Assembly: GCA_039815145.1 (NCBI GenBank)
Contig: JBCBZW010000017.1
Location: forward strand, 1-64,000
Source of the DNA: Pseudomonadota bacterium
GTDB taxonomy: Bacteria > Pseudomonadota > Gammaproteobacteria > Steroidobacterales > JBCBZW01
DNA length: 64,000 nt
Direction of reading: 5' to 3'
Below the pieces are notes generated by a model, which did no database searches, was not told the origin of the DNA, and worked only from the letters and a program-made list of their open reading frames with translations. Both the position numbers and the translations under genes were made by a program. Position 1 is the first letter of the stretch, and each line of letters begins with the position of its first letter. Below are positions 22,908-29,252 of the stretch, one piece after another.

Positions 22908-23816
22908 ATGCTCAGGCAACGTACGCTCAACAACTCGATTCGCGCGACCGGTGTAGGCTTACACTCCGGCAAGCAGGTACTCATGACCTTGCGTCCCGCG
23001 CCGGAGAACACGGGGATCCTGTTTCGCCGCGTCGATCTGGATCCGGTGGTGGAGATTCCGGCCCGCGCCGAGTTCGTCACGCGAACGGACCTGAACACCA
23101 CGCTCACCCTGGGCGATGCCAGTGTCTACACGGTCGAACATCTGCTCTCCGCCTTCGCCGGCCTCGGCATCGACAACGCCTACGTCGACCTGACCGATGA
23201 AGAAGTCCCCATCATGGACGGCAGTGCAGGCCCCTTCGTCTTCCTGCTGCAGTCCGCGGGGGTGACCGAGCAGTCGGTGGTGAAGCGATTCATTCGCATC
23301 CTGCGCACGGTGCGCGTGGAGGACGGGGATCGTTGGGCGCAGTTCGAGCCCTACGACGGTTTCCGGGTCGACTTCGAGATCGGCTTCGAACATCCCTCCT
23401 TCAAGCGCCGCTCACAGAAAGCATCGATCGATTTCTCCACCAGCTCCTACCTGCGTGAGATCAGTCGCGCGCGCACCTTCGGGTTCATGCGCGACATCGA
23501 GATGCTGCGCAAGCGCAACCTCACCCTGGGCGGGACGATGGATAACGCCATCGTGCTCGACGAGCATCGGGTGCTGAATGAAGACGGCCTGCGATACGAA
23601 GACGAGTTCGTCAAACATAAGATCCTCGACGCCATCGGCGATCTCTACCTCTTGGGTCGCAGCCCCATCGGCGCCTTCCGAGGCCACAAGTCCGGCCATT
23701 TCTTGAACAGCTGCCTCATGCAAGCGCTGTTGGAGCAGCCGGACGCCTGGGAGGAGGTCAGCTTCGAGGATGAGGCGGCAGCACCGCCGGCCTTCGCGCG
23801 CGCCGCGGCGGTTTAA
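22908..23816 (+). CDS. lpxC: UDP-3-O-acyl-N-acetylglucosamine deacetylase LpxC
   Basis: A zinc amidase catalysing the committed step of lipid A synthesis. The 302-aa product starts [21 protein letters not shown]. Zinc ligands are visible in [15 protein letters not shown] and in the [14 protein letters not shown] block; the catalytic His is in [22 protein letters not shown] and [14 protein letters not shown] are family motifs. It follows ftsZ as in E. coli and converges with dciA, with a 13-bp gap. Confidence 0.97.
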
Positions 23817-23829
23817 GGTTCTGGCGGCT

Positions 23830-24216
23830 TCAAGCTGGCGCCTCGGGAGGCGTCGCGCCCGGCCTGACACGTATCTGGAGACGCTTGACGGTTTTTCCGC
23901 AGGCGATGCCCAATTTGGGGGCGAGCGTGGGGGCGGATAAGCGCAGCTGTGAGGCCCATGCTGAAGATTGCAGTACCAGTGTGAGCGTTTCCTCGCTATA
24001 ACTAACGGCTTGCACGGCGCTGGCCACCGGGGAACCGAGGCATTCGCGAACGCTGTGCAGAAGCTGTCCCTGCTGCTTGGCCTTCGCCTTGAGCGATGCC
24101 AGCGCCGAGGTTTCGGGGGCAGCAGCGAACACTTCGCCGAGGGCTCGGGGGGCCTTCGTGGAGGGGGAATGGGGGCGTAGGTTGCCGAGGATTCGCGGCT
24201 TACGAGGTGCGCTCAC
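23830..24216 (-). CDS. dciA: DUF721 family protein, likely DciA replicative helicase loader
   Basis: DUF721/DciA proteins load DnaB helicase in bacteria that lack DnaC-type loaders. The 128-aa product has a basic N-terminus, then a DUF721 domain (LLHSVRECLGSPVASAVQAVSYSEETLTLVLQSSAWASQLRLSAP, ending RLQIRVRP). The position between lpxC and secA, antisense to both, is shared with Pseudomonas-type genomes. GTG at 24216 has GGAG 10 nt upstream; an in-frame GTG at 24267 is possible but lacks a ribosome site. Family assignment is from pattern and context; the helicase-loader role is family knowledge. Confidence 0.8.
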   Translation of the reverse strand: MSAPRKPRILGNLRPHSPSTKAPRALGEVFAAAPETSALASLKAKAKQQGQLLHSVRECLGSPVASAVQAVSYSEETLTLVLQSSAWASQLRLSAPTLAPKLGIACGKTVKRLQIRVRPGATPPEAPA

Positions 24217-24284
24217 GGACGGTCGGCTCCGCGCGCACGAACGGTCAGGGTAGATCGCATGACACACATGAAAGGCGAGCCTAG

Positions 24285-25220
24285 ATGAACCTGCTTGTCC
24301 TTGCCAATCGCAACAATGGCGTGCGCAGCCTGCGCATCAGCGCGTCCCAGGTGTACGCGGCCGTCGCTATTTTCGCCGTCGCCGTCGGGCTCGCCGGGTT
24401 CGCCGCCGGCGCCGGCGTCGGCTGGGGTCTTAAGGTACGTGCGGAGCGCCAGGTGGACGTGCTGGAGGCGCAGGTCGCCTACCAGACAGTGGCCCTGGAC
24501 GCCCTCGAGCAGTCCCTCGATAACAACATGGAAGCGCTGGTGGCGCGGGTCGGATCCCTCTCCGCACACGTCACCCGTTTGGATGCCCTCGGGCAGCGCC
24601 TGACCACCATGGCAGAACTCGAAGACGGTGAGTTCAACTTCGCCGCCGCCCCCGCCATGGGTGGCCCGGAAGCCGTCGACGGCGACTACCTCACCTCCAT
24701 CGTGACCAGCGATGAGGTGTTCTCGGAAGTCCTCACTCTGGAGCGCCAACTCGACGATCGCCGTCGCCAGTTGCAGGCCCTGGAGAGCATGCTGCTGACG
24801 CGCACGGTGGCGCAGCGTGTCGAGCCCGCTGGTTGGCCCGTGGAGGGCGGCTGGATCAGCTCCGCTTACGGTCGCCGCACGGACCCGATCAACAACACCC
24901 GCGCCTGGCACGCAGGGCTCGACTTCGCCGGCACCGAGGGTATGCCGATCAAGGCGGTCGCCGACGGCGTCGTCACCTGGTCCGCCCGCCGCTACGGCTA
25001 CGGCTACCTGGTGGAGCTCACCCACGGCAACGGCCTGGTCACGCGCTACGCGCACAACAGCGACAACCTGGTGGCCGTCGGTGACCGGGTAACCAAGGGC
25101 CAGGTGATCGCGAAGATGGGCTCGACGGGACGGGCCACCGGCCCCAACCTGCATTTCGAGGTCCTGCGCAACGGTCGCACGGTCAACCCCATCTCCTTCG
25201 TGAAGGCCGGCGCCCGCTAG
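24285..25220 (+). CDS. Membrane-anchored M23 (LytM-type) peptidase-family protein
   Basis: A 311-aa envelope protein. It has a short cytoplasmic tail, one transmembrane helix (about residues 23-48), a coiled-coil stalk (about 50-190) and a C-terminal LytM domain (about 195-305). Zinc ligands His209 and Asp213 (HAGLDF) and His290 are present, as is His257 (RYAHNSD). The usual GPHLHFEV reads GPNLHFEV, so the catalytic-position His of HxH is Asn288. The protein may therefore be a weak hydrolase or a regulator, as in EnvC-like LytM proteins. It lies between dciA and secA, where Pseudomonas also has an M23 protein. A structural or regulatory role in murein turnover is inferred. Confidence 0.85.
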   Translation: MNLLVLANRNNGVRSLRISASQVYAAVAIFAVAVGLAGFAAGAGVGWGLKVRAERQVDVLEAQVAYQTVALDALEQSLDNNMEALVARVGSLSAHVTRLDALGQRLTTMAELEDGEFNFAAAPAMGGPEAVDGDYLTSIVTSDEVFSEVLTLERQLDDRRRQLQALESMLLTRTVAQRVEPAGWPVEGGWISSAYGRRTDPINNTRAWHAGLDFAGTEGMPIKAVADGVVTWSARRYGYGYLVELTHGNGLVTRYAHNSDNLVAVGDRVTKGQVIAKMGSTGRATGPNLHFEVLRNGRTVNPISFVKAGAR

Positions 25221-25445: not shown

Positions 25446-28208
<2,763 letters not shown>

Positions 28209-28247: not shown

Positions 28248-29252
28248 GTGAGCGCGGCGCGCAGTACCATTACGGTGGTCGCCGCCGTCCTACGCGACGG
28301 TGAGGGCAGGGTGCTGCTGGCCGAGCGTCCCGCCGGCAAGGAAATGGCGGGAAAGTGGGAGCTCCCCGGCGGCAAGGTGCAGGCCGGCGAGTCGCTCCAC
28401 GGGGCGCTGGCCCGTGAGCTCGACGAAGAGTTGGGCGTGCGCACCTTATCCAGCCGCCCCCTGCTGCAACTGGCCCACGACTACCCCGAACGCCGCGTCA
28501 TCCTGCACGCGCGCGAAGCGCTCCATGCGGGCCAGCCCCAATCGCGGGAAGGTCAATCGTTGCGTTGGGTGGACTTGGCCGATGAGGCCGCCTTCGCCAC
28601 CCTCGATCTGCTGGAGGCGGACGGCCCGATCGTCACCGCTATGGGGCTTCCGGCCCGGTACCTGATCACGCCGCCGCAACTGTCTGCGCAGGAGGTGGGT
28701 ACCTTTCTGCACCGGGCTGCCGACGCCGGTATTCGCCTGGTGCAACTGCGACAGCCCCACGCCGACTCGGCCGCGCTGGGTAGTCTGTGCGCCGCCTTCG
28801 AGCAGGCGCTCGGCGAACGCGCGCGAGCGGGTGAGGTGACCCCATCGTGGCTGCTCGGCGGTGACCCGGCACAAACGGTTCCGTTAGCTGAGGCTCATGG
28901 CGCCCTGGCCGGCCTTCACCTGCCCGCCCGTTTCCTGGGCCAGCTGCCCCGGCTGCGTGGGCTCGCGGACGAGCGCGGATGGCGGCTGATGTGCTCCTGC
29001 CACGACCCTGACGAGCTCGCCACCGCCGCCGCCCACGGGGCGGACGCCGCGGTGCTCGGCCCCGTTTTGCCCACACCCAGTCACCCGGAGGCCGAGCCGC
29101 TGGGATGGGCGCGCTTCGCCGAGTGGTTGATCGACCTGCCGCTGCCCGTTTTCGCCATCGGCGGGATGCACGAGGCGCTGCTCAGCACCGCCTGGGAGGC
29201 CGGTGCGCAAGGGGTGGCGGGGATACGCGGCTTGGCGGAGACGACCGCCTAA
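28248..29252 (+). CDS. Nudix (MutT-like) hydrolase fused to a TenI/ThiE-like domain
   Basis: A 334-aa fusion. Residues about 8-130 are a MutT-like Nudix domain with the full Nudix box (GGKVQAGESLHGALARELDEELG), expected to hydrolyse oxidised dGTP or similar nucleotides. Residues about 138-332 resemble a thiamine-phosphate synthase/TenI barrel (RYLITPP, IRLVQLRQPHA, GADAAVLGPVLPT, LPVFAIGGM). The barrel lacks the NDR-type substrate motif (LLGGDPA at that place), so thiamine synthesis is doubtful. The same fusion next to secA occurs in Pseudomonas. Start is GTG, 39 bp after secA. Confidence 0.85.
   Translation: MSAARSTITVVAAVLRDGEGRVLLAERPAGKEMAGKWELPGGKVQAGESLHGALARELDEELGVRTLSSRPLLQLAHDYPERRVILHAREALHAGQPQSREGQSLRWVDLADEAAFATLDLLEADGPIVTAMGLPARYLITPPQLSAQEVGTFLHRAADAGIRLVQLRQPHADSAALGSLCAAFEQALGERARAGEVTPSWLLGGDPAQTVPLAEAHGALAGLHLPARFLGQLPRLRGLADERGWRLMCSCHDPDELATAAAHGADAAVLGPVLPTPSHPEAEPLGWARFAEWLIDLPLPVFAIGGMHEALLSTAWEAGAQGVAGIRGLAETTA

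Follow-up and report, generated by a model that had tools for sequence, protein, structure and literature searches.

Recurrent replacement of the first HxH histidine by asparagine in M23-fold proteins encoded at the secA locus

M23 domains are often called active or degenerate by their HxxxD/HxH signature. The window analysed here, a stretch of DNA of 64,000 nucleotides, carries beside secA a gene for an M23/LytM protein in which this signature is broken at one residue, Asn288 substituting for the first histidine of HxH, and the same break has occurred several times among its relatives, with the rest of the domain under full constraint. This raises the question whether the Asn forms are peptidases. 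Active Asn forms would mean that the signature excludes too much, and the locus would then offer a natural experiment for telling apart what each catalytic histidine does; in LytM these are given as His260 and/or His291 (PMC4594094). Should they be inactive, the order of the window genome presents His, Asn and Ser forms as graded steps along which the passage from zinc hydrolase to binder can be studied.

The M23 gene, its product and its surroundings

The coordinates of the gene, of the residues discussed below and of the neighbouring genes are listed in Table 1. The neighbours, which we take by similarity to be lpxC, dciA (DUF721) and secA, were found again in related loci, and in the first orthologue set lpxC, dciA or secA adjoined the gene in 204 of 219 aligned rows, 169 having both lpxC and secA. 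With lpxC upstream and secA downstream, the window protein belongs to the gammaproteobacterial secA-locus M23 orthologues, and the sequence-only reading had rightly placed a LytM protein between a dciA-like ORF and secA. Downstream of secA, an ORF on the forward strand (28248-29252) looks by eye like a fusion of a NUDIX hydrolase with a domain resembling thiamine-phosphate synthase.

Table 1. Positions of the M23 gene, its key codons and its neighbours in the window (neighbour names as presumed in the text).
Feature	Positions	Strand	Evidence
lpxC, conserved upstream neighbour	22908..23816	+	
dciA-like ORF (DUF721), between lpxC and the M23 gene	23830..24267	-	same place in some related loci
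M23/LytM gene, 311 aa	24285..25220	+	ORF from ATG to TAG, translation; Pfam PF01551 E 9.2e-33
Predicted long helix, residues 20-109	24342..24611	+	AlphaFold2 model
M23 catalytic domain match, Pfam profile 3-96	24909..25190	+	model pLDDT 94-98 per ten-residue block, 181-300
Codon His209, zinc ligand of HxxxD	24909..24911	+	kept in 314/315 linked rows; exception is a contig-end fragment
Codon Asp213, zinc ligand of HxxxD	24921..24923	+	kept in 314/315 linked rows; exception is a contig-end fragment
Codon His257, remaining catalytic His, equals LytM His260	25053..25055	+	kept in 315/315 linked rows
Codon Ala284, equals LytM Ser287 by offset; Ser usual in His orthologues	25134..25136	+	
Codon AAC, Asn288 replacing the first HxH His	25146..25148	+	
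Codon His290, zinc ligand, second HxH His	25152..25154	+	kept in 315/315 linked rows
secA, conserved downstream neighbour	25446..28208	+	

The protein has one Pfam domain, Peptidase_M23, over residues 209-302, with a score of 112.8 bits against a cut-off of 28.7. Its HxxxD motif is intact (H209-A-G-L-D213), and the motif around residue 288 reads RATGPNLHFEV (R283-A284-T285-G286-P287-N288-L289-H290-F-E), where N288-L-H290 retains the zinc ligand and lacks the catalytic histidine. The translation thus bears out the earlier observation that the three zinc ligands and His257 are kept and that Asn288 takes the place of the HxH histidine. An AlphaFold2 model had a mean pLDDT of 84.4 and a pTM of 0.53, with a confident M23 domain and a second helix at residues 142-179. 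The N-terminal part of the long helix is hydrophobic and likely a membrane anchor, as judged by eye, continuing into a coiled coil.

The structural matches of the model in the PDB, over the domain, were all M23 proteins, among them EnvC (4bh5; Z 22.2, rmsd 1.3, 124 aligned), ShyA (6ue4; Z 21.4, rmsd 1.6, 128 aligned), lysostaphin (4qpb; Z 20.7, rmsd 1.9, 127 aligned) and LytM (2b13; Z 20.6, rmsd 1.6, 124 aligned). Since the ShyA, LytM, lysostaphin and Csd1 chains all lie within about 2 Z of EnvC, the fold cannot tell an enzyme from an activator. By sequence, the best PDB chains were the Neisseria M23 proteins 3slu and 6muk. The window protein reached none of the 14 NCBIfam cut-offs listed: Pgp3 scored best with 97.9 bits (cut-off 300), and the scores for other families included MepM (88.8/341), ShyA (84.3/700), EnvC (74.6/270) and NlpD (70.7/311). 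For this reason, the protein is filed as M23-fold with one defining catalytic residue missing.

Residue 288 among orthologues, paralogues and other M23 proteins

Relatives were collected from 275 genomes of the class (263 with a match), from GTDB contigs (80 of 88 loci kept) and from 196 genomes of the order (185 with a match). Because the first loci were those most similar to the window protein, taken from the head of ranked match lists, Asn was over-represented among them, and 60 order genomes with weaker matches (30 + 30) were added, together with 60 further class loci. A row was counted as linked when lpxC, dciA or secA adjoins the gene, which gave 315 rows in the joint alignment; 16 genomes of the second batch of 30 yielded an unlinked best match only (L298-L313) and stand outside the orthologue count. 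In the 315 linked orthologues, which are still not a random sample and give no unbiased frequencies, residue 288 is His in 212, Asn in 94 and Ser in 9, the last all in one family. The residues H209, D213, H257 and H290 are present together in all rows except L290, the contig-end fragment, which lacks the first two, and His257 is found in 94 of 94 Asn rows. The Asn codon was AAC in 46 and AAT in 31 of the 77 rows read.

Outside the order, His288 occurs in all 87 class-coded rows, representing 64 families. Rows from named contigs have His in 68 of 69 cases, 34 of these 68 carrying no family name, so that some might belong to the window's order; the one Asn row, L041, comes from a Woeseiaceae MAG. 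Its protein is identical to that of L142 of family f3, and we therefore take f3 to be Woeseiaceae. The clade thus includes Woeseiaceae, whose order is reported to be widespread in marine sediments (PMC7082342). Among the 159 order rows there are 93 Asn, 57 His and 9 Ser, Asn being confined to this order among the orthologues sampled. Ten of the 15 sampled families are all Asn (f1, the window's own, 2/2; f3 43/43; f173 14/14; f171 4/4; f172 3/3; f175 5/5; f181 5/5; f170, f174 and f179 1/1 each), two are mixed (f180 13/30; f2 1/29) and three have no Asn (f169 0/5; f176 0/7; f177 0/9). The f2 rows that were added later have His288 in 21 of 21. The alignment of orthologues at the lpxC-secA locus, which the sequence-only reading had proposed as a way to see whether Asn is fixed, thus shows Asn as the norm for the majority of the order's sampled families, but not outside the order. 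The 11 of the 196 order genomes that lack any match to the M23 protein all belong to f178; they measure 1.1-1.6 Mb and are 64-92% complete, and the gene seems to have been lost in a lineage with reduced genomes.

Family f177 adds a third state of site 288. Its nine genomes (L273-L280, L283) have Ser288 together with Val284 at the same secA locus, in a motif of the RVTGSSLHFEV type, with the zinc ligands and H257 kept and several otherwise conserved positions altered. The idea that Asn is the only accepted replacement, which had arisen when the first 204 rows showed His and Asn alone and f177 was unsampled, is ruled out by this family.

Residue 288 changed about 8-10 times on the trees built from LpxC and SecA. 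A careful tree of 89 rows, in which f3 was thinned to 10, rows with fewer than 350 filled columns were dropped and f177 and genus g239 are absent, gave 8 His/Asn changes (bootstrap range 8-9), 7 of them forced by starred branches. A wider quick tree of 92 rows, with f177, g239 and more of f2 added and L289 and L292 dropped as too short, required 9 His/not-His changes, or 10 with three states, 4 being forced by starred branches. Nine changes were also counted on a quick LytM tree built without the motif, and nine on a quick SecA tree; of these, starred branches forced 4 and 2, respectively. On the careful tree, a two-state model favours a His root (lnL -28.0 versus -31.5), and its gains-only and both-direction versions fit about equally. 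A clear case of parallel change is L214 of f2, an Asn row that lies among His relatives in the LytM tree as well as in the SecA-based trees.

Besides 288, the preferred residue differs between Asn and His rows at 284 (Ser to Ala), at 289 (Val to Leu) and weakly at 305, as seen in the smaller set. Position 284 corresponds by offset to LytM Ser287, which adjoins the catalytic histidines (PMC5519744). In the 159 order rows, the combinations of 284 and 288 were 92 Ala+Asn, 1 Ser+Asn, 18 Ala+His, 37 Ser+His, 2 Thr+His and 9 Val+Ser. Ala284 accompanies Asn in 92 of 93 rows, yet it is also found in 18 of the 57 His rows and is thus not enough by itself to bring about the change at 288. In other M23 proteins, Ala or Thr at this position goes with His in roughly half of about 150 matches listed, as read by eye, from a pattern that misses AGY serine codons. 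Counted over independent pairs, 284 and 288 changed the same way in 4.3, the opposite way in 0 and without a difference in 2.7 (median p 0.125), a tendency below significance. A strict incompatibility of Ser284 with Asn288 is ruled out by L246 (G916, f3). Its motif, RSVGTNLHFEV, is the sole order Asn row seen with Ser284 and is also without the usual loop Thr and Pro.

The window genome encodes other M23 proteins with a full HxH. One of these is a full-length paralogue of the same layout, with an intact active site and RATGPHLHFEV motif (L001/L227, G000:C19, 10337-11383, reverse strand), which recurs as L228 (G281:C4); these are the two genomes of the window's genus, and in both an ORF that looks by eye like isocitrate lyase adjoins the gene. 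The active site is also intact in L002, whose best NCBIfam match is ShyC (348.1/700). A further locus, L009 (G000:C61:24110-24415, reverse strand), has an M23 domain in a frame of more than 1000 residues that runs, by eye, into an aminotransferase-like region.

Among the matches listed (down to E 2.4e-58), second rows were found in only six order genomes: G000 and G281 with the His paralogue, G280, G334 and G406 with unlinked second copies carrying Asn (L229, L226 and L253), and G414, in which both copies lie beside secA and both have Asn (L123, L150). Three f180 genomes among those added showed a weaker second row. Decay after duplication was set aside, as the second rows are this rare among the matches listed and mostly Asn, and duplication does not explain the Asn pattern of the order, though copies weaker than this E value may exist.

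A phylum-wide scan for the spelling GPN-x-H-[FY]-E matched 7 of 398 genomes, against 2 for the reversed control pattern; for scale, the corresponding His pattern was found in 104 of 120 phylum genomes. Five of the six matches outside the window are M23 proteins of other subfamilies (L231, L232, L233, L234 and L236), whereas L230 is not M23. By eye, the five keep the H, D, H257-equivalent and final H positions; three are in f166 of the same class and two come from other classes, and one has a LysM-like N-terminus. Within the order, a G-x-Asn-x-H-F-E scan matched 154 of 396 genomes, chance matches included (control 4, read by eye). Seventeen loci were picked from it as second copies or as odd; 9 proved to be Asn-carrying M23 relatives, and the other 8 are in non-M23 frames (L237-L242, L244, L249), including three of the four f2 matches, so chance matches are commoner than the reversed control suggests. 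The earlier description of the Asn site as an unusual intermediate state therefore fits M23 proteins at large, with five such proteins outside the window in 398 phylum genomes by the one spelling scanned, but not the order, where Asn is usual in most sampled families.

Constraint on the Asn forms and their possible function

We looked for relaxed constraint in the Asn lineages, in the conserved positions and in the rate relative to SecA, and found no sign of it. In the 212 His rows, 31 positions reach at least 95% conservation, and 30 of these hold the same residue at that level in 93 Asn rows, only position 288 differing; in an earlier, smaller set, 34 of 35 were kept. The ratio of M23-domain to SecA rate, taken over nearest disjoint pairs that ignore phylogeny and with f3 contributing 43 of the 93 order Asn rows, had a median of 0.92 for Asn (44 pairs), compared to 1.42 for His pairs of the order (25 pairs; p 0.004 versus Asn) and 1.51 for those of the class (40 pairs), i.e. 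the Asn domain evolves slower, not faster. A smaller first test pointed in the same direction without reaching significance (0.92 versus 1.22, p 0.11). The Ser family f177 keeps 24 of the 31 positions, with 7 changed or weakened, and has a ratio of 2.55 (4 pairs). With repeated switching between His and Asn while the rest of the active site stays intact, the Asn form has the look of a variant that is being maintained, rather than of an enzyme in decay.

The reading that we tentatively favour, at a little short of an even chance, is that the Asn form is a zinc M23 peptidoglycan peptidase of modified chemistry, which would work with one catalytic histidine and a hydrogen-bonding Asn. In such an enzyme, zinc would polarise the scissile carbonyl, His257 alone would serve as base, and a hydrogen bond from Asn288 would hold either the nucleophilic water or the transition state; the first HxH histidine would have been exchanged with Asn repeatedly in the order, nearly always beside Ala284. 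We infer zinc binding, the one-histidine mechanism and peptidase activity from the retention of 30 of the 31 conserved positions, the slower Asn domain, the recurrence of the switch and the five NxH M23 proteins elsewhere. With more reserve, the same evidence may point to a naturally occurring and repeatedly evolved NxH class of M23 peptidases that would cleave peptidoglycan with one catalytic histidine, Asn doing the work of the first histidine of HxH, mostly in proteins with Ala284 instead of the Ser four residues upstream. Against a one-histidine enzyme, Ser288 in 9 of 9 sampled f177 genomes indicates that the histidine can be given up at this locus, and the full-HxH M23 proteins elsewhere in the genome would make a loss of activity affordable.

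Whether Asn could take over depends on what the histidine does. In LytM, zinc polarises the carbonyl, and His260 and His291 contact the attacking oxygen at 2.6 and 2.8 A (PMC4594094); as both make this contact, one base could remain in the Asn form. The LytU paper assigns His260 as the base and the HxH-side His291 as transition-state stabiliser (PMC5519744), and if so, Asn could take the stabilising role with His257 staying the base. According to a review, the HxH histidine activates the water and the other histidine helps (PMC9662197), in which case a zinc-loaded binder like Pgp3 H247A becomes more likely. Replacement of either LytM histidine by Ala abolishes activity (PMC4594094), the inactivity of H291A being reported separately (PMC3046168), and the same outcome is reported for EnpA H109A (PMC8269130) and for Pgp3 H247A, which keeps its zinc site (PMC6978369). 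EnpA H109 and Pgp3 H247 each lie 31 residues from the other catalytic histidine, and on this spacing they were equated with position 288. One paper notes that crystallised LytM variants altered in HxxxD/HxH contain no zinc (PMC8416486). The inactive LytM, EnpA and Pgp3 variants at this site are all Ala mutants, and none is Asn. The zinc-less LytM structures cited for this carry changes of ligands. We know of no natural M23 form of the Asn288 type that has been shown to be active, and the excerpts of the M23/LytM literature available on the locus, on degenerate LytM proteins, on pseudoenzymes and on NxH contained no report of a change from His to Asn in HxH.

Given that His to Ala at this site inactivates LytM, EnpA and Pgp3, the main rival is a zinc-loaded pseudoenzyme that binds cross-links without cutting them and serves as a wall anchor or sensor, or else competes with or regulates a hydrolase that is active, which we regard as a serious possibility, if the less probable one. 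Pgp3 H247A binds two peptides at its zinc site, a pentapeptide and, with the scissile bond in place, a cross-linked tetra-tri peptide (PMC6978369), and conservation of the zinc site and the groove would be expected as well if substrate binding alone were selected. The Ser of the sister family f177 and the intact-HxH M23 proteins of the same genome are in keeping with a binder, but His257, which is catalytic in the usual scheme, is kept in every Asn row, constraint on the domain is stronger in Asn than in His rows, and the switch occurred many times.

The sequence-only reading had likened the protein to degenerate LytM proteins such as EnvC, and a protein of EnvC/NlpD type that activates an amidase would find two Amidase_3 proteins in the window genome, while EnvC is among the best structural matches and has a similar layout of coiled coil and LytM domain. 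However, the fold is undiscriminating, the EnvC and NlpD equivalog scores fall well below their cut-offs, and the proteins of the window genome that match these families best have lost their active sites: L005 (EnvC, 154.9/270) lacks all three zinc ligands, and L004 (NlpD, 195.2/311) lacks one ligand and both catalytic histidines. Because the window protein keeps all its ligands, with its active site under full constraint, where true degenerate LytM proteins lost theirs, the EnvC-type reading is poorly supported, and we consider it unlikely. More improbable still is near-neutral drift, with His, Asn and Ser interchangeable and the catalytic step mattering little at this locus: repeated switching, the similar fit of the gains-only and both-direction models and the Ser of f177 would agree with it, but only three residues occur at 288 in 315 rows, the active-site positions around it do not vary among Asn rows, and all 87 class-coded relatives keep His.

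Comparison with studied M23 proteins

The nearest studied protein by position that we found is PA4404 of P. aeruginosa, a substrate of LbcA-CtpA; both it and the window protein are LytM/M23 proteins adjoining DciA, in the case of PA4404 by locus number, and the likeness is one of position. We presume that secA and lpxC are further neighbours of PA4404. PA4405 is annotated as DciA (PMC10119676), and PA4404 is predicted to be a cross-link hydrolase and is degraded by LbcA-CtpA (PMC6050968). It is a predicted outer-membrane lipoprotein with an undamaged peptidase domain (PMC6050968), whereas the window protein has a putative N-terminal membrane helix and Asn288.

The DD-endopeptidases MepM, ShyA and ShyC have the M23 fold and the zinc motif in common with the window protein, which differs in scoring below the MepM and ShyA cut-offs and in having Asn for the first HxH histidine. 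Csd2 of Helicobacter pylori also has the first HxH residue replaced (Lys246), but unlike the window protein it has lost the HxxxD histidine (Glu165) and binds no zinc (PMC5053510). EnvC shares the fold and the arrangement of a coiled coil followed by a LytM domain, whereas its like in the window genome, and that of NlpD, have lost zinc ligands of which the window protein keeps all three. Pgp3 of Campylobacter and Helicobacter, the family with the top NCBIfam score, has His247 and is active, whereas the window protein has Asn288, and the H247A variant of Pgp3 is the nearest experimental analogue of the Asn form.
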